DNA of 64,000 bases from Gemmatimonadota bacterium (GTDB lineage: Bacteria; Gemmatimonadota; Gemmatimonadetes; Longimicrobiales; Gaopeijiaceae). Positions 24,492 to 38,196 of this stretch are shown here, in pieces. Position numbers and translations under genes: made by a program. How positions within the stretch are numbered: the first letter of the stretch is position 1; each line of letters starts with the position of its first letter. The notes under the pieces were generated by a model. That model did not search any database. It was not told the DNA's origin and was given only the letters and a program-made list of their open reading frames with translations. The stretch spans positions 62,001 to 126,000 of the forward strand of contig JAJCZZ010000049.1 of NCBI GenBank assembly GCA_029262115.1, in the 5' to 3' direction.

Positions 24492-25235
24492 CTACAGTTC
24501 AGCTTTCCAAGCGAGCAGCGTATCGACCTGGTTCGTAGTGATCCGCGGGACGCCCATCTCCAGGAGGCGAGACGCCTGGACCGGATCGTCGATGGTCCAT
24601 ACCGCCATCGGGATGCTCGCCACCCGGAAGCGGGCGGATTGCACGGGGTCGTCCAGGAGGATCCGCCCATCGAGGTCGACCAGCGCCCGCTCGTCCCCGT
24701 GGGCCCGACGAAGTGCGTCGTCGACGCGCGACGGCTCCTCCACGATGTATCCGATCCGGAGGTCGGACTGCTGACTGCGCATACGGTCCAGGAGCGTCCA
24801 GTTCATGGCAATGAACACGGTCTGCTCGAGAACCCCCACGGAACGGGCAATCCGTATCATTCGATCGAGGTCCTCGAACTCCCGGAATCCCTTGACCTCC
24901 GCGTAGATCGTATCGAAGCGGCCCGAGCATGCGGCGAAGGCCTCCTCCAGGCTCGGGACGGGCTCGCCCACGAATTCGGGAGAGAACCACGCCCCGGCGT
25001 CCAGCTTCTTCAGTTGGGCGAGAGTTCTCCGCTTGATGGGCCCGACGCCGTTCGTGGTGCGGCTCAGCATTGTATCGTGGAAGAGCACCGGTGTGCCGCA
25101 GGCCGCGGTGTGGATGTCGAACTCCACCGCGTCAGCGCCCGCCGAGAACGCGGCCTCCAGCGCGGCCAGGGTATTTTCGGGCGCCCGTGCGCTGAAGCCG
25201 CGGTGAGCGATGACCTCGACGTTCGACGGAGTCAC
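24492..25235 (-). CDS. Glycerophosphodiester phosphodiesterase (GDPD family)
   Basis: The 247-residue enzyme begins at a GTG overlapping the stop of the upstream small membrane protein (GTGA). The active-site motif VIAHRGFSARAPENT, metal ligands VEFDIH and acid/base His in VLFHDTMLSRTTNG are all present, as are YAEVKG and the C-terminal VWTIDDP...ITTNQVD. It cleaves glycerophosphodiesters to glycerol-3-phosphate and an alcohol. There is no signal peptide, so it is cytoplasmic. It is in a two-gene minus-strand operon. Confidence 0.93.
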   Translation of the reverse strand: MTPSNVEVIAHRGFSARAPENTLAALEAAFSAGADAVEFDIHTAACGTPVLFHDTMLSRTTNGVGPIKRRTLAQLKKLDAGAWFSPEFVGEPVPSLEEAFAACSGRFDTIYAEVKGFREFEDLDRMIRIARSVGVLEQTVFIAMNWTLLDRMRSQQSDLRIGYIVEEPSRVDDALRRAHGDERALVDLDGRILLDDPVQSARFRVASIPMAVWTIDDPVQASRLLEMGVPRITTNQVDTLLAWKAEL

Positions 25236-25537
25236 GGCCTGGGCGGATCCTGGGTCGACTCGTCTCCGGCCGAGAGCTGGCGGTGGAAGTCGGTCACCTC
25301 GTTGAGCGTCCGCACCGAACCTTCCATCGCCTCCATCTGCTGCTCCATGAGCGCGAGCCGTCGCTCCAGAATCGAAACCGTCTCGTCCAGCCCCTTGTGG
25401 TCGAAGAGCTTGGCCATGGCCTCCACCGCCGGCTTCAGCGCGAAGCGGGCCGTGAGTCCGATGACCGGAACGAGCACGATCGAGATGCCCATGACGGTCG
25501 CGACGAGTCCGACGAGATCGATTGGTACGATTTCCAT
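25232..25537 (-). CDS. Small membrane protein with coiled-coil tail
   Basis: This gene encodes 101 residues from the ATG preceded by AGGCAGG. The longer frame starting at 25687 would overlap the divergent sigma-factor gene. An N-terminal membrane helix (VGLVATVMGISIVLVPVIGL) is followed by a heptad-like helix (ETVSILERRLALMEQQMEAM). Similar short anchor-plus-coiled-coil proteins occur widely in Gemmatimonadota without known function. The 132-bp gap to the ECF sigma gene is a divergent promoter region. Confidence 0.7.
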   Translation of the reverse strand: MEIVPIDLVGLVATVMGISIVLVPVIGLTARFALKPAVEAMAKLFDHKGLDETVSILERRLALMEQQMEAMEGSVRTLNEVTDFHRQLSAGDESTQDPPRP

Positions 25538-25669
25538 CTTGCCTGCCTTTCGCGACGCGAATGGGACGGGTGGCGCGTGACGGTGTACGACGGAGAAGAC
25601 GGGCGCAAGGGTTCCCGCGACGGGCTTCCAACCCCGGACGCCTCCCTTCCGTCCAAGGACGTGAAGAAC

Positions 25670-26230
25670 GTGACCGGATTCCCTCACGATTCACGGGTGC
25701 CTGTGGGTGCTGTGCCGATAGAAGCGACCGACGTACAACGGGCTGCGCGTGGCGACCACCAAGCGTTCGAGCGTCTCTACCGCGACCACGTGGGACGGGT
25801 GTACGCGCTCGCCGTCCGGATGGCGGGGGACGGGATGGCCGACGACCTGACTCAGGAGGTGTTCATCCGTGCTTGGGAGAAGCTCGGGAGCTTTCGTGGC
25901 GACGCTCGCTTCGGAACGTGGCTGCATCGCCTCGCCGTGAACTACATCCTGACCAAACGGACGAGCGCACGCCGAAGGGAGGCGCGACACGTGGCGGACG
26001 ACGGCCTGGTGGATCGGATGGTCGCGCCGAGACGGCGCAGTTCGGGTGCCGCGATGGATCTCGAACAGGCCATGAAGAGTCTCCCCGAGGGCGCTCGGCA
26101 GGTCTTCGTTCTGTACGACGTGGAGGGGTACCCGCACGACGAGATCGCGGGAATGATGGACATCTCGGTGGGGACGTCGAAGTCCCAATTGCACCGTGCG
26201 CGCATGCTGCTACGCAAACATCTGGACTGA
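25670..26230 (+). CDS. ECF RNA polymerase sigma factor
   Basis: This is a sigma-70 family protein of about 186 residues. Region 2 includes FERLYRDHVGRVYALAVRM and DDLTQEVFIRAWEKLGSFRG; region 4 includes LPEGARQVFVLYDVEGYPHDEIA and GTSKSQLHRAR. Several in-frame GTG codons (25661, 25670, 25697) could start it. I chose 25670 for its spacing from AAGGA. It is followed 4 bp later by a zinc-type anti-sigma and then three DUF4097 genes, its likely targets or co-regulated partners. Confidence 0.93.
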   Translation: MTGFPHDSRVPVGAVPIEATDVQRAARGDHQAFERLYRDHVGRVYALAVRMAGDGMADDLTQEVFIRAWEKLGSFRGDARFGTWLHRLAVNYILTKRTSARRREARHVADDGLVDRMVAPRRRSSGAAMDLEQAMKSLPEGARQVFVLYDVEGYPHDEIAGMMDISVGTSKSQLHRARMLLRKHLD

Positions 26231-26234
26231 CAAT

Positions 26235-26945
26235 ATGAACGACCATCGATACTGGACCCACCGTCTGACCGAGTACGTCGACGGCGACATGACACCGGCC
26301 GACCGCCTCGCGTTCGAGAACCACGCGGAGGCCTGCAGCGACTGCTCTGCCGCCGTGGCCGACATCCGAGCCCTCGTGGAGGAGGCCGGGCGACTCGGAC
26401 CGACGCCGCCGCCACGTGACCTGTGGCCGGCCATCGAGCGCGGCCTCTCGCGGCCTGGCGTCGTCGGCTCGCCAGGCGAGACACGCGTGATTGCGCTTCC
26501 GACGGCTCAGGCCCCCCGGAAGCGCGAGCGTTCCTTCACGCTGTCGGGACCCCAACTGGCCGCGGCCGCGGCGGTCCTGATGTTGCTGTCGACCACGGTC
26601 ACGCTGGCGCTGCGTCCGGTCGCGGTTGCACCCGGCTCGCAGGATCCGGTCCCCGGTGCGGTGCGGGCCGCTTCGACGGAAAGCGGCGGCTCGGATGCGC
26701 TACTCGCCGAAGAGGTCGCGGCCCTCGAGGAGGGACTGCAGGCTTCGCGTGATCGCCTCGATCCGAATACGGTGCGGATCATCGAGAAGAACCTCGCCGT
26801 GATCGAGCGTGCGATATCAGAGTCGCGGCAGGCGCTTCTGGTCGACCCCGAGAGCGACTTTCTCCGGGACCACCTGGATCGTGCCTTCCAGCGGAAGCGG
26901 GAGTACCTGCAGGAAGCGACCGAGATGGTCGAGTGGGCTGGGTGA
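26235..26945 (+). CDS. Zinc-binding anti-sigma factor (membrane)
   Basis: The 236-residue protein starts at the ATG 4 bp after the sigma stop. The N-terminal ZAS domain has HAEACSDC (HxxxCxxC) at about residues 32-39. One membrane helix lies at about 112-130 (AAAAAVLMLLSTTVTLAL), and an extracytoplasmic helical tail (LEEGLQASRDRLDPNTVR...) likely senses or binds periplasmic factors. It should hold the ECF sigma inactive at the membrane. Its end overlaps the first DUF4097 gene by one base. Confidence 0.92.
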   Translation: MNDHRYWTHRLTEYVDGDMTPADRLAFENHAEACSDCSAAVADIRALVEEAGRLGPTPPPRDLWPAIERGLSRPGVVGSPGETRVIALPTAQAPRKRERSFTLSGPQLAAAAAVLMLLSTTVTLALRPVAVAPGSQDPVPGAVRAASTESGGSDALLAEEVAALEEGLQASRDRLDPNTVRIIEKNLAVIERAISESRQALLVDPESDFLRDHLDRAFQRKREYLQEATEMVEWAG

Positions 26946-27790
26946 TGCTTCAGTCCCTCGCAGTGGCCGGGGCCTTGGCCCTGAGCCTGACCCCCAACGA
27001 CACCGTTTTGGAGGTTCGGCGCGGGGACCGCCTCGTGGTGGAGAACCTGTCGGGCACCGTGGCCGTCGGGTCCTGGAACCGCGACGCGCTCGAGGTTCGG
27101 GGAGAGCCGGGTGATCGTGCCGAGGTGTCGGTCGTTCGCAACGGGTCCACCCTGACGATGGCCCCGTCCCGCCGGCGCGGGCGAAACCGCGAGGTCGATG
27201 CCGTCGTCAGGGTCCCTGCATGGATGGACGTCGAGATCGGAGGTCGTGAGTTGGAGGTTTCCGTCCGCGGCCTCACGGGCTCGGTCTTCGTGCGAAATAT
27301 CGAAGGGGATATCCGGGTCGACGGTACGCGGGGTCCGCTGCGCCTCCACAGTGTGGACGGCGAGATCCTGGTGAGGGACGCCCGGGGGCGTGTCGAGGCG
27401 CGTTCGCGGGGTGACGATGTCACGCTCGTCGACGTCATCGGCGAGGTGGACGTCGAGACGGGAAACGGGGACGTCCTCCTGGACCGGGTCGATGGCTCCT
27501 TCATTCGGGCGGAGACGTTGGACGGAGATGTGCGGTTCATCGGGCCGATCCGGCGAGGGGGGCGGTATTCGTTTTCGGTCCACGATGGCGATGCGGTCCT
27601 GGAACTGCCCCGCGGCTCCGCGTTCGACGCCACGGTGGCCACGTTCGACGGGGACTTCGTCTCGGACTTCCCGGTCGTGATCGCGAATTACCGGGGCGGA
27701 CGGGCCTTCAAGTTCACGCTCGGGGGCGGCGGAGCGTCGGTTCGGATCGAGGTGTTCGACGGTGAAATTCGGCTGGTGGAACGACGATAG
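26945..27790 (+). CDS. DUF4097 beta-solenoid protein, first of three
   Basis: The 281-residue protein starts at the ATG sharing its A with the anti-sigma TGA. The N-terminus is a weak signal (MLQSLAVAGALALSL). The rest is a repeated short-strand pattern around xGDIxV-like turns (GDIRVDG, DGEILVRD, NGDVLLDRV, DGDVRFIG, DGEIRLV), as in DUF4097 putative adhesins, which fold as right-handed beta-helices. It is co-transcribed with the ECF sigma and anti-sigma. Function is unknown; a cell-surface or envelope-stress output is inferred. Confidence 0.8.
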   Translation: MLQSLAVAGALALSLTPNDTVLEVRRGDRLVVENLSGTVAVGSWNRDALEVRGEPGDRAEVSVVRNGSTLTMAPSRRRGRNREVDAVVRVPAWMDVEIGGRELEVSVRGLTGSVFVRNIEGDIRVDGTRGPLRLHSVDGEILVRDARGRVEARSRGDDVTLVDVIGEVDVETGNGDVLLDRVDGSFIRAETLDGDVRFIGPIRRGGRYSFSVHDGDAVLELPRGSAFDATVATFDGDFVSDFPVVIANYRGGRAFKFTLGGGGASVRIEVFDGEIRLVERR

Positions 27791-27866
27791 GAGAGGGACT
27801 GAAGCGGGGCGTCCTGGGCGCCCCCTCTACACGCCGCGTTGGTGCGGCCGATCACAGGAGATGACG

Positions 27867-28772
27867 ATGGGACGGGCAAGAGGAGTCGTGGTAGCGGCGG
27901 CGGCGTTGATGGCGTTCGGCGCCCAGGACGTGGCGGCGCAGAGCAGCGGAATCGAGCGGGCACTGGAGCGCGCCGCCGAGGCGCTCGAGCGCGCCTTCGA
28001 CGGGATGGGACGCGCCATGGATCGGGCGTTCGATCGCGGCGCGGACGGTGCGTACACGGCGGCCGCGGACGACTTCCGTTGGACCGGTCGGCTCGCCGAC
28101 GGGCAGATCCTCGAGATCAAGGGGCTGAACGGCAGTGTCCGTGCCGAGCGGGCGTCGGGCTCGGAAATCGAGGTACGTGCAGAGGCCCGGGCGCGCCGGA
28201 GCAATCCGGACGACGTTCGGATCGAGGTCGTCGAGCACGAAGAGGGACTGACGATCTGCGCCGTGTATCCGTCCCCCGAGGGCAGACGCGAGAACTACTG
28301 TGCCCCGGGCTCCGACGGACGCATGAACAGCCGCAACAACGACACCCGTGTCGACTTCGTCATATCCCTGCCGGATGGCGTGCGTTTCGCGGGGCGGACG
28401 GTCAATGGCGACGTCGAGGCGCTCGGGCTCCGTTCCGACGTCGTGGTGGCCACGGTCAATGGGGACGTGGACGTCGCCACCACCGGGTACGCTGAAGCGA
28501 GGACAGTGAACGGGTCGATCGAAGCCCAGATGGGTAGGATGGATCCCGAGGGTGGCCTCAACTTCCAGACGGTCAACGGAAGCATTGAGCTCGATCTCCC
28601 AGACGACGTGGACGCCAACCTGGACGCCCGCTGGGTGAACGGGAGTATCGAGTCCGACCTGCCCCTTCGGATCAACGGCCGAATCTCCCGCCAGCGAGCC
28701 TCGGGCGTCCTGGGCAACGGGGGCCCCGAGCTGTCCGTGTCGACCGTCAACGGCTCGATCCGGATCCGGTGA
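27867..28772 (+). CDS. DUF4097 beta-solenoid protein with VNGSI repeats, second of three
   Basis: The 301-residue protein starts at the ATG 6 nt after AGGAG; an ATG two codons earlier abuts the ribosome site. It has a signal peptide to DVAAQ, then a charged helix (RALERAAEALERAFDGMG). Seven rungs are marked by LNGSV/VNGDV/VNGSI (LNGSVRAE, VNGDVEAL, VNGDVDVA, VNGSIEAQ, VNGSIELD, VNGSIESD, VNGSIRIR). It is exported and probably a surface beta-helix. The stop codon sits within a possible GTG (28769) of the next gene. Confidence 0.82.
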   Translation: MGRARGVVVAAAALMAFGAQDVAAQSSGIERALERAAEALERAFDGMGRAMDRAFDRGADGAYTAAADDFRWTGRLADGQILEIKGLNGSVRAERASGSEIEVRAEARARRSNPDDVRIEVVEHEEGLTICAVYPSPEGRRENYCAPGSDGRMNSRNNDTRVDFVISLPDGVRFAGRTVNGDVEALGLRSDVVVATVNGDVDVATTGYAEARTVNGSIEAQMGRMDPEGGLNFQTVNGSIELDLPDDVDANLDARWVNGSIESDLPLRINGRISRQRASGVLGNGGPELSVSTVNGSIRIR

Positions 28773-28798
28773 AATTCATGTACTCCTTGGAGCGACTG

Positions 28799-29830
28799 AT
28801 GAAAAATACCCTCATGGCTCTCGCTGCCGTCGGCCTGCTGGCGGGTGAGGTGATCGGGCAGGAGAGCCACAGAATTTCCGGATCCGAGGTGGCGATCTAC
28901 AACCTCGTCGGCACGGCGCAGGTTCGTCGGGGCACGGGCTCGGACGTGGTCGTGCGAGTAATCCGCGGGGGACGCGACGGCGGCCGCTTGGACGTAGCGG
29001 TCGACGAGATTCGCGGCCGACGGACCTTGCGTGTTCTCTATCCGGACAACGAGATCGTGTACCCGGAGATGGGCCGGAACAGCAACAACAATGTCAGTGT
29101 GCGCGACGATGGAACGTTCGGGGGCGGCCGAGGTGGTGAGCGTGTGCGCATTCGGGGGAACGGGCGCGGGCTCGAGGCGTGGGCCGATCTCGTCATTGAA
29201 GTGCCCTCGGGCCGTGCCCTCTCTCTCTACGTTTCGGCGGGTGACGTCGAAGTGAACGGCGTGGAGGGCCGATTCCTGATCGACACGGGGAGTGGGGAGG
29301 TCGTGGTTTCCAACGTGCGCGGCACGCTGGGAGTCGACACAGGCTCCGGAGCCGTGCGCGTCACCGACGTCGAGGGGGATCTCAACGTGGACACGGGGTC
29401 GGGCTCCGTGTCGCTTCGGAGCGTGAACGGGAGAGAGGTGCTGGTCGACACAGGCTCGGGGCGCGTGACCGGTACGGGCGTGCGAGCCTCCGTCCTACGA
29501 GTCGACACGGGCTCGGGGTCGATCGAGATGGACGACGTGACGTCCAGCGACGTCGTGCTCGACACCGGCTCCGGGTCGGTCCGGCTCGACCTTACCCGTG
29601 ACGTCGAGCGCCTGGACATCGACACCGGTTCGGGGTCGGTCACCGTGAGCGCTCCGGCGAACCTCGGAGCCGAAATCGAAGTGGAGACGGGAAGCGGAGG
29701 CATCGACGTGGACTTTGCCGTTCAGGTCAGAACCGTCCGAAGGGATCACCTGATCGGACGGATCGGGGACGGCGGTGGGCGGATCCGCATCGACACCGGC
29801 TCGGGGAGCATTCGCCTGATCCGGCGATGA
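28799..29830 (+). CDS. DUF4097 beta-solenoid protein with DTGSG repeats, third of three
   Basis: The 343-residue protein starts at the ATG of MKNTLMALAAVGLLAG, which gives a clean signal peptide and is preceded by GGAG; GTG 28769 and ATG 28778 are weaker alternatives. Eight DTGSG and one ETGSG motifs recur, mostly every 18-21 residues, matching one beta-helix turn each. The codons vary between copies, so this is selected protein structure, not recent DNA duplication. The Asn/Gly-rich insertion GRNSNNNVSVRDDGTFGGG lies before the repeats. Function is unknown. Confidence 0.83.
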   Translation: MKNTLMALAAVGLLAGEVIGQESHRISGSEVAIYNLVGTAQVRRGTGSDVVVRVIRGGRDGGRLDVAVDEIRGRRTLRVLYPDNEIVYPEMGRNSNNNVSVRDDGTFGGGRGGERVRIRGNGRGLEAWADLVIEVPSGRALSLYVSAGDVEVNGVEGRFLIDTGSGEVVVSNVRGTLGVDTGSGAVRVTDVEGDLNVDTGSGSVSLRSVNGREVLVDTGSGRVTGTGVRASVLRVDTGSGSIEMDDVTSSDVVLDTGSGSVRLDLTRDVERLDIDTGSGSVTVSAPANLGAEIEVETGSGGIDVDFAVQVRTVRRDHLIGRIGDGGGRIRIDTGSGSIRLIRR

Positions 29831-33049: not shown

Positions 33050-33472
33050 GTGATCCATGCCGAGGCCACGTTTCGCTTTCACCACCCCGTGGCCGTCCGC
33101 TTCAAGGACGTCGACGTGGGAGGCCATGCGCACCATTCGCATGCATTGGTCTACTTCGAGGAGGCCCGGGCCGCCTATTGGCGGACGGTGATCGGCGGCG
33201 GGCACCAGGAGGATATCGACTACATCCTGGCCGAGTGCGAGATCCGGTGGCGCGGCCGCGTGCTCTGGCCTCAGGAGCTGAGCGTCGGGGTGCGAGTGAG
33301 TCGACTCGGCAAGAAACACTTCGACATGACGTACGAGGTCCTTGGTGAGGATGGGGCTGTCCTGCAGACGGGTCGTACGACCCAGGTCATGTACGACTAC
33401 GAAACGAGCTCGGTGAAAGCGATGTCCGACGAGATCCGGGCGGCGATCGAGGCGTTCGACGGACCGTTCTGA
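33050..33472 (+). CDS. YbgC/4HBT-type acyl-CoA thioesterase
   Basis: The 140-residue hotdog protein has the family signature VRFKDVDVGGHAHHSHALVY, in which the Asp and the following Gly-His turn form the active site (usually YxDTDxxG). I chose the GTG at 33050, 11 nt after AAAGGA; an ATG at 32990 has no ribosome site and adds an atypical leader. The typical family length supports this. It is cytoplasmic; the acyl-CoA substrate is unknown. It is divergent from the TolB/CsgG-like lipoprotein. Confidence 0.87.
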   Translation: MIHAEATFRFHHPVAVRFKDVDVGGHAHHSHALVYFEEARAAYWRTVIGGGHQEDIDYILAECEIRWRGRVLWPQELSVGVRVSRLGKKHFDMTYEVLGEDGAVLQTGRTTQVMYDYETSSVKAMSDEIRAAIEAFDGPF

Positions 33473-33718
33473 AGGCGGGTCGTACTACAAAGGGGTGGCG
33501 CGTGTCGGCATGTGGGTGTAAGGTCGCGCCCATGACGCGTATGTGAGCGAGCCGACAGGCGGCTGCGAACTGTGTCATAACAGTGGCCCGAAGGGGACCG
33601 TGGACCGATTTTTGCGGACCTTTTCGGCCGGGTAGCGTTTAGAGTAGTTCACCATCTCCGGGTACCGGTCCGGAGGTTGGATTCTTCGAGAAGGGGTAGG
33701 ACCCCGAGGAGACCCTGA

Positions 33719-35458
33719 ATGGTCGGTCGGCTAAAGTTCGGTTTCACGATTCTCGCGGCGGTGGCGGTCCTTGCACCCGCGACGGCCCAGGCGCAGGACG
33801 GGCGGTACCGCATTCTGATTCCCGACTTCTTTCCCATGCAGGACGCGGGCAAGAAGTTCGGCGAGAAGACGGCGGAAGAACTGAGGGAGTTGGTGAGCAC
33901 GCTCCCGACGCATGAAGCCATCGAAGAAGATGAGATCAAGGACGATCTCAAGCGCTTCAAGATGAAGATGGATGAGCTCGACTGCATCAAGACCCGCCAG
34001 CTCGCGTCTCAGATGAACGCGCAGCTCGCGCTATGCGCCGAGTACGTCGAGCAGGGTGACGGCCGTGTCATGTCGGGAGTGGTCTTCCACGACATCGCGT
34101 CCGGCGAGATGTTCGCCATCAGCGACGCGACGTTCGACAAGGACGACCAGGAGATGGCCGCGCAGCACATCTTCGGTGAGTTCGATCGGTACGTACAGCA
34201 GGTCCGTGCCCAGGGCATCTGCCAGGAGTACTACCAGAGCAAGCAGTTCGACGATGCGCTCCGGAACTGCAACGAGGCACTGGCGCTCAACGAGTCGTCC
34301 ATCGGCACGCGGTACCTCCGCGGCCGGATCTACTACGAGCTCGAGCAGTATCCTCAGGCGCTGGAAGAGTTGGACTGGGTCCTGAGCGTCAACGAGTTCC
34401 ATGACGAGGCGTTGCAACTCGCCGGGTATGTCGCCGCGCTCGAGGGTCAGGACGACAAGGCCCGTGAGTATTACGGGCGCTACCTGGAGATCAACCCCGG
34501 CAACGCCGCGATCCGCATGAACATCGCGTACGAGTTGGCGAAGGCGGGTGACCCGCAGGGCGCCATGCAGTTCATTCAGGTTGGTCTCGACGTCGAGCCG
34601 GACAACGTCGACCTGCTCGAGCAGTTCGGGGGCTTCGCGTTCGCCGCCGCTCTTGAGGCTGTGCAGGAGTCGAGCATGGCCGCGACGGGCAACGACGCCG
34701 GAGGGATCCCCCCCGAGGCGGTCCAGCTCTACCGCCAGGCCATCGACGCGTACCAGAAGGTGTTCGCGGTCAAGGGCGCCGAGACGAACGTGGGCCACCT
34801 GCGCAACATCATGGTGGCGTACATTCAGTTGGATGAGCCGACCGAGGCGATCGCCATCGGCGACCGGGTGCTCCAGACGCATCCGCAAGAAGACGCGTTG
34901 TGGTCGATGTACGCCGACGCGCTCCAGCGCAGCGGCCGCCTCGACGACGCCATCGTCGCGCTCGACCGGGTGAAGGAGATCAACCCCTCGCACCCGTCGG
35001 CGTCGCTGCGGCAGGGAAGCTGGTTGATCGAGGCGGGGGAGATCGACCGCGCGGCCGAGGTCCTTGCCGGAGTCGCGCAGGCCGGTCCCGAGAAAGCCGA
35101 GCAGGCTGCCCGGATGCTGTTTGGTGAGGCGTACAACAACGGCGTCCAGCCGAAGCGCTGGGGCCACGCCATCTCGACGATCATCAGGACGAAGGCGCTG
35201 CCGAATCTGAGTCCGGAGATGACCCATCAGTTGAACTTCTGGCATGGCTATTCGATCCTGCAGGCCACCATTCCCGAGCAGGCGCCAAACACGCTCGAGA
35301 GTGCTCGCGCCACGCTGCCGAAGTTCCGTCAGGCATTGCGGCTCCTTCAGGACGTCGGGAACTACCCGAGCACTGTGAACGTCACGATCGGGGATTTGAT
35401 TTCGAACGTGAACACGTACATCGAAATTCAGGACGCCATCATCAAGCGTGGCCGGTAG
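33719..35458 (+). CDS. Secreted TPR protein with TolB/CsgG-like N-terminus
   Basis: The 579-residue protein has a signal peptide (LKFGFTILAAVAVLAPATAQAQ; mature from about residue 27) and GAGGAG before the ATG. Residues about 30-150 (RILIPDF...ELDCIKTRQLASQM...VEQGDGRVMSGVVF) look like a TolB/CsgG-type alpha/beta domain. Residues about 165-500 contain TPR repeats such as YYELEQYPQALEELDWVL. The gene is monocistronic, with a 246-bp upstream region without an obvious consensus promoter and a very strong terminator after it. It is probably a periplasmic scaffold. Confidence 0.8.
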   Translation: MVGRLKFGFTILAAVAVLAPATAQAQDGRYRILIPDFFPMQDAGKKFGEKTAEELRELVSTLPTHEAIEEDEIKDDLKRFKMKMDELDCIKTRQLASQMNAQLALCAEYVEQGDGRVMSGVVFHDIASGEMFAISDATFDKDDQEMAAQHIFGEFDRYVQQVRAQGICQEYYQSKQFDDALRNCNEALALNESSIGTRYLRGRIYYELEQYPQALEELDWVLSVNEFHDEALQLAGYVAALEGQDDKAREYYGRYLEINPGNAAIRMNIAYELAKAGDPQGAMQFIQVGLDVEPDNVDLLEQFGGFAFAAALEAVQESSMAATGNDAGGIPPEAVQLYRQAIDAYQKVFAVKGAETNVGHLRNIMVAYIQLDEPTEAIAIGDRVLQTHPQEDALWSMYADALQRSGRLDDAIVALDRVKEINPSHPSASLRQGSWLIEAGEIDRAAEVLAGVAQAGPEKAEQAARMLFGEAYNNGVQPKRWGHAISTIIRTKALPNLSPEMTHQLNFWHGYSILQATIPEQAPNTLESARATLPKFRQALRLLQDVGNYPSTVNVTIGDLISNVNTYIEIQDAIIKRGR

Positions 35459-35472
35459 CCGCCTGATGTAGG

Positions 35473-35492
35473 CGGGTCGGCCGACCGACCCG
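35473..35492 (+). other. Hairpin preceding the terminator
   Basis: CGGGTCGG pairs with CCGACCCG around a CCGA loop, 4 nt before the main terminator stem. Tandem hairpins like this may block 3'-5' decay of the TPR mRNA. Confidence 0.5.
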
Positions 35493-35495
35493 GAA

Positions 35496-35532
35496 GGGCG
35501 TCGCGGAGCTTCGGCTCTGCGGCGCCCTTTTT
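35496..35532 (+). terminator. Intrinsic terminator of the TPR gene
   Basis: The stem has 14 consecutive pairs (two G-T), GGGCGTCGCGGAGC with GCTCTGCGGCGCCC, closed by a TTCG tetraloop and followed by TTTTT. It is a classic Rho-independent terminator. The T-run is cut by the group II intron at 35533; the 3' flank begins with another T. Confidence 0.93.
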
Positions 35533-37495
35533 GTGTGCCAGGCATGCCCTGTGTCTGGAGTGAGAGTCTCAAACGGACGGAGGTAGCGCCGAACCGCATA
35601 GCCGAGGGCAAGGGTGCCCGTCGCGAGGCGGGATCTGAAGGAAGCCGGAGGCGAACCACGGACCTGACGAACAGGAACCGGATAGAAGGCCCGCGAGCGC
35701 GGGGTGAGTCGGCAAGATACGCCAAAGCCCGAAAGCTACTCGGACGCGACGCGGGTAAATCCGGCGGGGGTCGTGGGAAAGAGACAGGGCTTACCCTGGG
35801 AGGCCTCTGGGTCTGTCCAGACGATCTGGACTACCCGACCAGCGATGGGCGGGGATGGGCCTGGAGGAGTCAGCAGAGGCCATAGTAGGCCGACGGAGTG
35901 CATGATGCGCTTGGACCCAGCTTCGTCGGGCGAAGGGCCGAACTTCTTGGATGCAGGGAGACAGACCGGATGATTCGATGGACGTGGAGCCGCAGCAAGA
36001 CATGACGGACCAACGCTCGATACTCGGAGCGGGGGCCGGGGTGTGCCCCTTGGGAAGCGGAGAGGCCGGAAGCCGATCTGCGGTCGTAGGGGAGCGGCAA
36101 GCGTCGTCGGTGTCGGAGGGGAATCGAGCCCTGACAACGGACACCCTGATGGAGAGGATATGTGAGCCGAAGAACCTGAATCGGGCCTACAAGCGAGTGA
36201 AGGCGGGGCACCGACGCGTAGCGTTGGTCGAGGGAGCCTGGGCGTCGATGGACTGACGGTGGGCGAACTGGGGGCCTGGCTCGCGGCCCACAAGGAGGAG
36301 CTGGTCAAGGGCTTACTGGACGGGAGCTACCGGCCACGGGCGGTGCGCGGGGTCGAGATCCCGAAGCCCGGCGGTGGGGTGCGGCAGTTGGGTATCCCAA
36401 CAGTAGTGGACCGGTTGGTACAGCAGGCGATCCTCCAAGTGCTGGACCCATTGCTGGACCCGACCTTTTCGGAGTCGAGCTACGGCTTCCGACCCGGCCG
36501 GAGCGCCCACCAAGCGCTACGGAAGGCGTCGGAGTACGTAGCCGAGGGCTACTCGATCGTGGTGGACATGGACCTGGAGAAGTTCTTCGACCGGGTCAAC
36601 CACGACGTGCTGATGGGACGCCTGGCCCGGCGCATCACGGATAAGCGACTGCTGAGGATCATCCGCCGGCTCTTGGAGGCGGGGATCATGAAGCAGGGCG
36701 TAGTGATCGAGCGATACGAGGGGACTCCGCAGGGCGGGCCGCTATCCCCGTGCCTTGCGAACCTCCTGCTGGACGAGGTGGACAAGGAGTTGGAGCGGCG
36801 GGGCCATCGGTTCTGCCGGTACGCCGACGATCTGAATGTGTACGTGCGGTCGAAGGTGGCTGGCGAACGAGTGATGGCGTCGTTGACGCGCTTCGTAGAG
36901 AAGCGGCTCCGGCTGCGCGTGAACCGAACGAAGAGCGCGGTAGCGTATGTGGGTGAACGCAAGTTCCTCGGTTACCGACTACTCGCGGGCGGCAGGCTGA
37001 CCATAGCACCGGCAAGCCTGAGGCGCGCCAAGGAACGGATCTGCGGGATCACACGCCGTAACAGGGGTATCAGTATCAGCCTGGAACGGATGATCTCGGA
37101 ACTGAACTCGTTCCTCACCGGGTGGGTGACGTACTTCCGCTATGCCAGCGCGAAGTCACACCTGCAACGGCTGGACGAGTGGATACGGCGGAAGCTGCGC
37201 TGTGTGCGGCTGAAGCAACGCAAACGGGGCCGGTCGATCACTGTCTTCCTGGTCAGCTTGGGTGTGCCGCAATGGCGGGCCCGAAAGCTGGGCGGGAGCG
37301 GACGCGGCTGGTGGCGCATGGCTGGAAGCCCTCAGGCGACCGAAGCCATGACCGTCCAATGGTTCAGAGACCAGAAGCTCGTCAGTCTCACCGAAAGGTA
37401 TCTGACGCTACAACACTGAGAAGAACCGCCGGATACGGACCCGTATGTCCGGTGGTGTGGGGGGACGGGGGGCGTGAGCCCCCCTCCCACCCGAT
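35533..37495 (+). mobile_element. Group IIC intron (about 1.96 kb)
   Basis: The 5' end GTGTG fits GUGYG and follows the terminator T-run directly. Domain I contains conserved group II blocks (AGGAAGCCGGAGGCGAAC, CTGACGAACAGGAAC, GAGTCGGCAAGATACGCC). Domain V is at 37425-37456: ACCGCCGGA-TACG/CGTA-2-nt bulge-TCCGGTGGT, with the CGC triad typical of class IIC. Domain VI has a long GGGGGGC hairpin and a bulged A at 37489, seven positions from a 3' AT end. Class IIC introns characteristically insert after terminator hairpins. The encoded RT is closest to the GsI-IIC type. Confidence 0.93.
36149..37419 (+). pseudogene. ltrA: Group II intron reverse transcriptase/maturase with N-terminal frameshift
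   Basis: From ATG 36149 one frame encodes MERICEPKNLNRAYKRVKAG, the RT N-terminus. The match then moves to another frame (SLGVDGLTVGELGAWLAAH), which is open from 36166 but has no start until GTG 36259. The shift lies between about 36205 and 36235. The rest is intact: VEIPKPGGGVRQLGIPTVVD, FGFRPGR-like YGFRPGRSAHQA, EGTPQGGPLSP, catalytic CRYADDLN and the maturase X domain (LTGWVTYFRYA). There is no HNH endonuclease, as expected for class IIC. Translation from GTG 36259 would lack the first 35-40 residues, so activity is doubtful. Confidence 0.8.
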
Positions 37496-37678
37496 TCGTA
37501 CCCGGTCGTTTGGCCCTTCACCCACCCATCTCCCCTGACGTGCCGGAGAACTTTCGGGTTTCGTTCGGAAAAACTGAAATTTGGAATTCACGGTCACGCC
37601 CGTGACTCAAGCAATGATGCGGGCTTCCGCCGCCCCACGCCCGGATGAGGTGGGAGTAGAAATAGCAAAAAAGGACTG

Positions 37679-37708
37679 TTGACACTCAGCACCACCACGC
37701 CGTATTAT
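37679..37708 (+). promoter_or_regulatory. Sigma-70 promoter of the dcw cluster
   Basis: TTGACA (37679-37684) and TATTAT (37703-37708) are separated by 18 bp. Transcription would start near 37715, leaving a leader of about 44 nt before the mraZ GTG. Between the intron and this promoter (37496-37678) there is only a short inverted repeat GTCACG-CC-CGTGAC at 37593-37606. Confidence 0.75.
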
Positions 37709-37711
37709 GCC

Positions 37712-37745
37712 CCCACGTCATCCCACTTCATCCCACTCCAACCCA
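37712..37745 (-). promoter_or_regulatory. MraZ operator: four TGGG boxes spaced exactly 10 bp
   Basis: CCCA (TGGG on the minus strand) occurs at 37712, 37722, 37732 and 37742, so each box is one helical turn from the next. MraZ is known to bind TGGGN repeats separated by 5 bp upstream of its own gene. The array covers the predicted transcription start and early leader, fitting autorepression of the dcw cluster. Confidence 0.8.
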
Positions 37746-37758
37746 ATCGGGTTATCGC

Positions 37759-38196
37759 GTGACGGCGTTCCGGGGCCAGTTCGAGCATCAGTTGGACGAC
37801 AAGGGGCGCGTCAGCCTCCCCTCGGCGTTTCGCCGGGGCGGGGTCGACACGTTCGTTCTCGTGCAGTTGCAGGATGCTTATCTGACGCTCTATCCCGAGG
37901 CGAAGTGGGAGGAGGTCGAGGAGCGGCTCATGGACTTCGGCGCTTCCGACGAGGCGAGCATGAACGTCGTTCGCCGCGTGATGTCGCACCTGACCGAGGT
38001 CACCCCGGACAAGCAGGGGCGCATCCTCATTCCCTCAGCCCTGCAGGAGGCCGCGGGTCTCGAGGGGTCGGCCGTCCTGCTCGGTGTCCAGAATCGAATC
38101 GAGATCTGGAATCCCGAGCGGTTGAGGGATAAGACGAGCGAAGCGTCGCCGGCTCAGGCACAACTGCAGTCCATCGCTTTGAGGTTGAGTCGGTGA
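37759..38196 (+). CDS. mraZ: Transcriptional regulator MraZ
   Basis: The 145-residue protein from GTG 37759 has two SpoVT/AbrB-like MraZ halves: FRGQFEHQLDDKGRVSLPSAFR (split here as FRGQFEHQLDDKGR and VSLPSAFR) and LTEVTPDKQGRILIPSAL. MraZ forms oligomeric rings and represses the dcw promoter. Four suitable boxes lie just upstream. The ribosome site is poor. The stop overlaps the rsmH GTG by 4 nt. Confidence 0.95.
   Translation: MTAFRGQFEHQLDDKGRVSLPSAFRRGGVDTFVLVQLQDAYLTLYPEAKWEEVEERLMDFGASDEASMNVVRRVMSHLTEVTPDKQGRILIPSALQEAAGLEGSAVLLGVQNRIEIWNPERLRDKTSEASPAQAQLQSIALRLSR

Follow-up and report, generated by a model that had tools for sequence, protein, structure and literature searches.

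Structure of the Locus

The window, which is the whole stretch of 64,000 nucleotides analyzed here, is located on contig C49 of a 5.45 Mb assembly (110 contigs) of a Gemmatimonadota bacterium. Between 25.6 and 29.8 kb, five co-directional and nearly contiguous genes encode an ECF sigma factor, an anti-sigma factor, and three proteins of the Toastrack/DUF4097 family, here designated T1, T2, and T3. The first-pass annotation had reported five consecutive genes of these kinds, and their order, common direction, and families were confirmed. The features are as follows.

25626..25656 (+): ECF-type promoter, putatively autoregulatory, conserved 5' of ECF genes with 16-bp spacing and variable spacer sequence
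25697..26230 (+): ECF sigma factor with regions 2 and 4 only (Pfam/NCBIfam); start uncertain, GTG 25697 to GTG 25712
26235..26945 (+): class I anti-sigma factor with zf-HC2, one TM segment, and an extracytoplasmic TPR-like helical domain at ~26697-26942 (Pfam, alignment, PDB matches)
26945..27790 (+): T1, predicted exported Toastrack/DUF4097 beta-solenoid (Pfam, linkage, AlphaFold2, Foldseek)
27861..28772 (+): T2, Toastrack with VNGSI rungs and an invariant pair of cysteines, predicted to be exported (Pfam, alignment, linkage, promoter)
28799..29830 (+): T3, predicted exported Toastrack with nine D/E-TGSG rungs (Pfam, alignment, AlphaFold2, Foldseek)

The ECF gene is present where it had been annotated, but its start lies at ~25697-25712 and not at 25670, based on the promoter position and the orthologue alignment. 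The start of T1 overlaps the stop of the anti-sigma gene (26945), T2 starts at 27861 or 27867, and T3 at 28799. The sigma factor matches Sigma70_r2 with 59 bits and r4_2 with 65 bits in Pfam. It has the composition of an ECF sigma factor: regions 2 and 4 are present, region 3 is absent, and the promoter has an AAC-type -35 element.

The anti-sigma factor matches zf-HC2 with 34.7 bits against the Pfam cut-off of 22.2, and its sequence HAEACSDC corresponds to the HxxxCxxC pattern. With this domain, an ECF neighbour, and a TM segment, it belongs to the class I (zinc-finger) membrane anti-sigma factors. The N-terminus showed PDB matches to RsiW (5wuq), ChrR, and RsrA, and the C-terminal extracytoplasmic part to TPR repeats. 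Class I anti-sigma neighbours are seen for ~79% of ECF genes in the phylum and are hence ordinary (PMC7406223).

Rungs, Fold, and Predicted Export of the Toastrack Proteins

T1, T2, and T3 match PF13349 with 39.6, 38.6, and 81.4 bits, respectively, all above the cut-off of 22.9. Their rung motifs have diverged, as the first-pass annotation had noticed. In T2, V(N/S)G(D/S) is repeated six times. T3 contains eight exact DTGSG and one ETGSG, spaced by 18-21 residues with one double interval. These motifs are kept in the orthologues of T2 and T3; the rungs of T1 are looser. Two cysteines of T2 are invariant in the orthologue alignment. T3 also matches Pfam 'Asp_protease' families due to the repeated DTGSG, but below the cut-off, and it is not considered to be an aspartyl protease.

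AlphaFold2 predicted confident beta-solenoids for T1 (pLDDT 90.3) and T3 (pLDDT 91.9). The best Foldseek match of both models was 4qrk (E 5e-10 for T1 and 1e-7 for T3, probability 1.00), with low TM-scores of 0.20-0.32. The T3 model matched 3ljy and 4opw as well, and the solved relatives are annotated as (Bacteroidetes) 'adhesins'. The right-handed beta-helix fold as in 4QRK is seen in the predicted models of both T1 and T3.

A hydrophobic N-terminal segment was found in 58 of 60 T1, 46 of 53 T2, and 37 of 47 T3 proteins and in none of 80 ECF controls, the counts being approximate because the gene starts come from our own simple gene caller. Later TM-like segments are rare in the orthologues of all three. 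The N-terminus of T1 and T3, where a signal peptide is expected, is left unmodelled by AlphaFold2, and the invariant cysteine pair of T2 fits an oxidising compartment. These sequence features indicate that T1, T2, and T3 are exported, to the periplasm or the surface, in line with the export proposed earlier. Ravi et al. (2024) predicted that Toastrack domains are intracellular and lie next to PspC/LiaF membrane domains (PMC11237479). Such a location is not predicted for T1, T2, or T3. Their predicted export conflicts with the published view of intracellular Toastrack domains and argues against it, at least for this branch.

Linkage of the Toastrack Genes to the Sigma Factor Genes

The first set of genomes included 59 relatives, the Longimicrobiales MAG L025, and the window, in which 40 T1 genes were placed. 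L025 is the only close relative of the cassette that carries a name, and its T3 is 59% identical to that of the window. As a scan of close-relative contigs with T3 detected a single locus, profiles were used instead. The gene immediately upstream of T1 is that of the anti-sigma factor at 39 of 40 loci in the first set and at all 20 loci in other families, or at 59 of 60 in total. The 60th T1 is at the edge of a contig that begins with an anti-sigma tail. No free-standing T1 was found among the 60 loci.

T2 and T3 are placed less strictly. T2 is usually behind T1, including 17 of the 20 T1 loci in other families, and T3 is mostly encoded elsewhere. Free-standing genes in the first set are 17 for T2 and 14 for T3; in the second set, all 19 placed T3 genes are free-standing. 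Many genomes have T1 without T2 or T3, T3 is also found without T1, and copy numbers vary. Among 200 genomes drawn from the phylum, the T1 type is present in 136 and the T3 type in 76. In family f3, a gene for a DUF5916 protein lies between T1 and T3.

The full five-gene order was observed in three genomes only: the one containing the window, L026 from the same genus, and L025. The idea that the three paralogues are conserved together with the ECF pair therefore failed, as T1 alone is fixed, and the five genes cannot be taken as one inseparable unit. It is likely that ECF-anti-sigma-T1-T2 is the old operon and that T3 was a separate member of the regulon, drawn into the operon in the lineage of the window, where it is inside the operon without its own promoter. 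The first-pass annotation had regarded variable copy number without linkage to the sigma factor as evidence against its proposal. The number and position of T2 and T3 do vary; their sigma-type promoter is nevertheless kept, and thus the regulatory linkage persists.

A Common Promoter

A two-block motif similar to TTCMAACC-N16-BRTCYAA is present 5' of the ECF genes, and the spacer sequences are unrelated to each other. In the window, the promoter is TTCCAACC-N16-CGTCCAA at 25626-25656. A weight matrix was trained on the ECF upstream sequences alone and then run on other genes, with matches counted at 12 bits or higher. In the first set, matches were found for 34 of 40 ECF operons, a count that includes the training sites, and for 12 of 17 free T2 and 6 of 14 free T3 genes, counts that do not. 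Unrelated genes showed 4 matches in 359 (Fisher 1e-38 for ECF operons, 8e-16 for free T2, and 2e-7 for free T3). There was no match for T2 and T3 inside operons (0/27), T1 (0/40), or anti-sigma genes (0/41) of the first set. In the families left out of training, 15 of 20 ECF operons and 13 of 19 free T3 genes had a match, and no match was seen for operon T2 (0/19) or unrelated genes (0/96).

A portion of the free T2 and T3 genes do not have the motif. A common regulon is best supported by the finding that T2 and T3 have the promoter when they are alone and do not have it when they are in the operon. The pattern suggests that the ECF factor of the window operon reads TTCMAACC-N16-BRTCYAA promoters and that its gene is probably autoregulated. 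Control by the sigma factor, as the first-pass annotation had supposed, is supported by this promoter evidence.

A second set of ECF, anti-sigma, and T1 genes is present in the same genome (contig C27, 26002-27612 and upstream; L046). Its promoter is slightly different, TCCAAACC-N17-CATCCAA, and the set may read the same promoter sites.

Probable Members of the Regulon beyond the Operon

An exact pattern search of the genome of the window detected 6 sites, including the window promoter, and none when the pattern was reversed. With a similar pattern and one mismatch allowed, there were 8 sites and 1 control match, and in the 59 relatives ~60 sites and 3 control matches. The following are downstream of the sites in the genome of the window.

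Window: the five-gene operon
Contig C91: T5 Toastrack with DDSSG rungs
Contig C8: T4 Toastrack with NGG rungs
Contigs C31, C82, and C105: three operons of PadR and a MacB/FtsX permease (ADOP)
Contig C11: an ADOP permease alone
Elsewhere in the genome: two further exported-looking proteins

The annotated sites in relatives are before ECF operons, T2, T3, T4, and T5 Toastracks, PadR-ADOP operons (in genomes G000, G001, G005, G013, and G029), and DUF5916 proteins; some sites are without explanation. Judged from these sites, this is probably an autoregulated sigma regulon whose members were retained after leaving the operon.

ADOP permeases are likely to be members of the regulon, less certainly than the Toastracks. 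The genome contains at least 150 MacB_PCD matches (MacB_PCD/FtsX 'orphan' permeases), several of which, among those examined, are behind PadR genes, and with permeases so numerous their share among the promoter targets is less striking. A search for literature on ADOP permeases with PadR found nothing relevant. DUF5916 proteins, composed of a CBM9-like domain and a long C-terminal domain, are encoded in the operon, beside T3, or elsewhere behind the same promoter (L037, L041-L044, L138, L153, and L155). They are also likely members.

Proteins in the Third Slot

The position of T1 is occupied by other proteins in related cassettes. Where a related anti-sigma factor shares the TPR-like C-terminal domain, the next gene encodes an exported double-PDZ protein instead of T1; where the domain is missing, the next gene encodes a HEAT-repeat or a PDZ protein. 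Sister cassettes L184-L198 have the order of ECF, anti-sigma, and then an exported double-PDZ or HEAT-repeat protein in the T1 slot. The third slot looks like an exchangeable module of exported interaction proteins, and this swap for PDZ and HEAT proteins speaks for T1 having a role in signalling.

The mirror-tree signal is modest, and the test of T1-anti-sigma contact is a weak one: the distance correlation of T1 with the periplasmic domain of the anti-sigma factor, given the other parts, is 0.35, and that with the cytoplasmic part is 0.30. In the subset of loci containing T2, the correlation with the periplasmic domain is 0.49 for T1 versus 0.085 for T2.

Comparison with Known Systems

In the sigma-E/RseA/RseB system, a sigma factor, a membrane anti-sigma factor, and an exported third protein are encoded in this order. 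The gene order is the same here, with T1 as the putative counterpart of RseB. T1 differs in being a beta-solenoid in which PF13349 was the only match and the MucB/RseB domain is absent.

In Bacillus subtilis, YvlB is a DUF4097 protein and YknZ is a MacB-type permease. Both yvlB and yknWXYZ are included in the sigma-W regulon (PMC3498285). The system described here resembles sigma-W/RsiW in the ECF factor with a zinc-finger anti-sigma factor and in a regulon with a DUF4097 gene and a MacB-like exporter. In contrast to sigma-W/RsiW, several Toastracks are present here, predicted to be exported, and the gene for one of them is linked to that of the anti-sigma factor. A further difference is the TPR-like domain on the extracytoplasmic side of the anti-sigma factor, and the phylum is another one.

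LiaX of enterococci, a cell surface protein with PF13349, inhibits LiaFSR until daptomycin is bound (PMC10269926). By analogy, T1 would regulate the anti-sigma factor from the periplasm. LiaFSR is, however, a two-component system instead of an ECF/anti-sigma pair, and LiaX has an extra N-terminal helical domain. The profile matches of LiaX and LiaG, weak ones coming from T2 and T3, do not reach the NCBIfam cut-offs (LiaG 24-83 bits against 285; LiaX 31 and 19 bits against 350), and the proteins were not placed with LiaG/LiaX.

Ravi et al. (2024) connected the same domain family, Toastrack, with membrane stress and, in places, with sigma factors and PadR/HAAS (PMC11237479). Pfam detected no PspA, PspC, or LiaI-LiaF-TM domain in the five genes or in those of their neighbours that were scanned, and placement with the PSP/Lia system was rejected due to the absence of these partners. 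The individual parts are of familiar kinds. For their arrangement, and for a sigma regulon of this kind, no description was found in the open-access literature searched, from which subscription papers are mostly absent.

Possible Function of the Regulon

The gene content, the linkage of T1 to the anti-sigma gene, the common promoter, the export signals, and the fold are established by computation. We consider it fairly probable that the five genes are the central operon of a cell-envelope stress regulon that is autoregulated, occurs across the class, and has T1 acting on the anti-sigma factor. In the unstressed cell, the anti-sigma factor, which spans the membrane, would hold the ECF factor. 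T1 in the periplasm, by analogy with LiaX, would touch or regulate the anti-sigma factor through its extracytoplasmic TPR-like domain and report envelope damage or a membrane-active compound; the signal is presumably envelope or antimicrobial-peptide stress. Upon the signal, the sigma factor would be freed and transcribe its own operon and the scattered targets from the TTCMAACC-N16-BRTCYAA promoters. The targets would include exported Toastracks with different ladders (T2 VNGSI, T3 DTGSG, T4 NGG, and T5 DDSSG), PadR and MacB/FtsX-type permease operons in the family of the window, and DUF5916 proteins in other families. T2 and T3 would thereby serve as output. The more specific proposal, in which the anti-sigma factor has T1 as its periplasmic receptor or co-inhibitor and Toastracks of different ladder chemistries are the protective output, is tentative, with a little less than an even chance. 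If it is true, Toastracks are extracytoplasmic sensors and effectors of envelope stress in Gram-negative-type bacteria, and the third slot of the cassette is exchangeable for PDZ or HEAT proteins.

A less probable reading, though still a serious one, keeps the same sigma regulon and takes T1 as mere output, an exported protective protein placed first in the operon and without signalling, while the anti-sigma factor senses alone or by proteolysis. T1 shares its fold with T3 and its Pfam family with T2 and T3, its fixed position could be explained by the translational overlap with the anti-sigma gene, and coevolution between the two is modest. However, T1 was free-standing at none of the 60 loci, whereas T2 and T3 often are, and with other similar anti-sigma factors the slot of T1 is taken by a PDZ or HEAT protein that is exported.

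The first-pass annotation had suggested that the three solenoids could form a graded or heteromeric surface structure under the control of the sigma factor; such a structure would be an adhesin-like stack. The 'adhesin' annotation of the solved relatives, the different rung residues of the paralogues, and the predicted export are compatible with it, yet the separate occurrence of T1 and T3 and the variable copy numbers make it improbable. Of the three, only T1 is linked to the anti-sigma gene, most T3 genes are located elsewhere, and Pfam detected no domain for surface anchoring or for a secretion system. That unrelated DUF4097 genes, common in the phylum, lie behind a sigma factor by chance and that the motif is a common sequence is hardly credible given the 59 of 60 linkage, the near-absence of the motif in reversed-pattern controls, and its enrichment in families left out of training.

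The preferred reading, a stress regulon with T1 acting on the anti-sigma factor, places the widespread DUF4097 in a regulatory context, with a defined promoter, an anti-sigma factor as constant partner, and a set of co-regulated genes. This regulon, conserved over a bacterial class, points to a cell-envelope stress response, and there is a good chance that it provides a testable role for DUF4097.

Neighbourhood of the Operon

The gene divergent from the sigma gene, at 25235-25537 (-) of the window, encodes a small protein with a coiled coil and a single TM segment; it is kept beside the sigma gene in several relatives (L025, L028, and L029). It was considered as a PspB-like partner and rejected, as no Pfam family was matched.

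The genes for a thioesterase, an exported TPR protein, and mraZ constitute a conserved neighbourhood at 33050-38196 of the window. Between the gene of the TPR protein and mraZ, with which the division/cell-wall cluster begins, lies a group II intron at 35617-37495 (+) with a reverse-transcriptase ORF at ~36259-37419. In several genera (L027, L029, L030, and L033), the cassette or a lone T3 is near the same neighbourhood, and the cassette may thus be anchored beside the cell-wall cluster.
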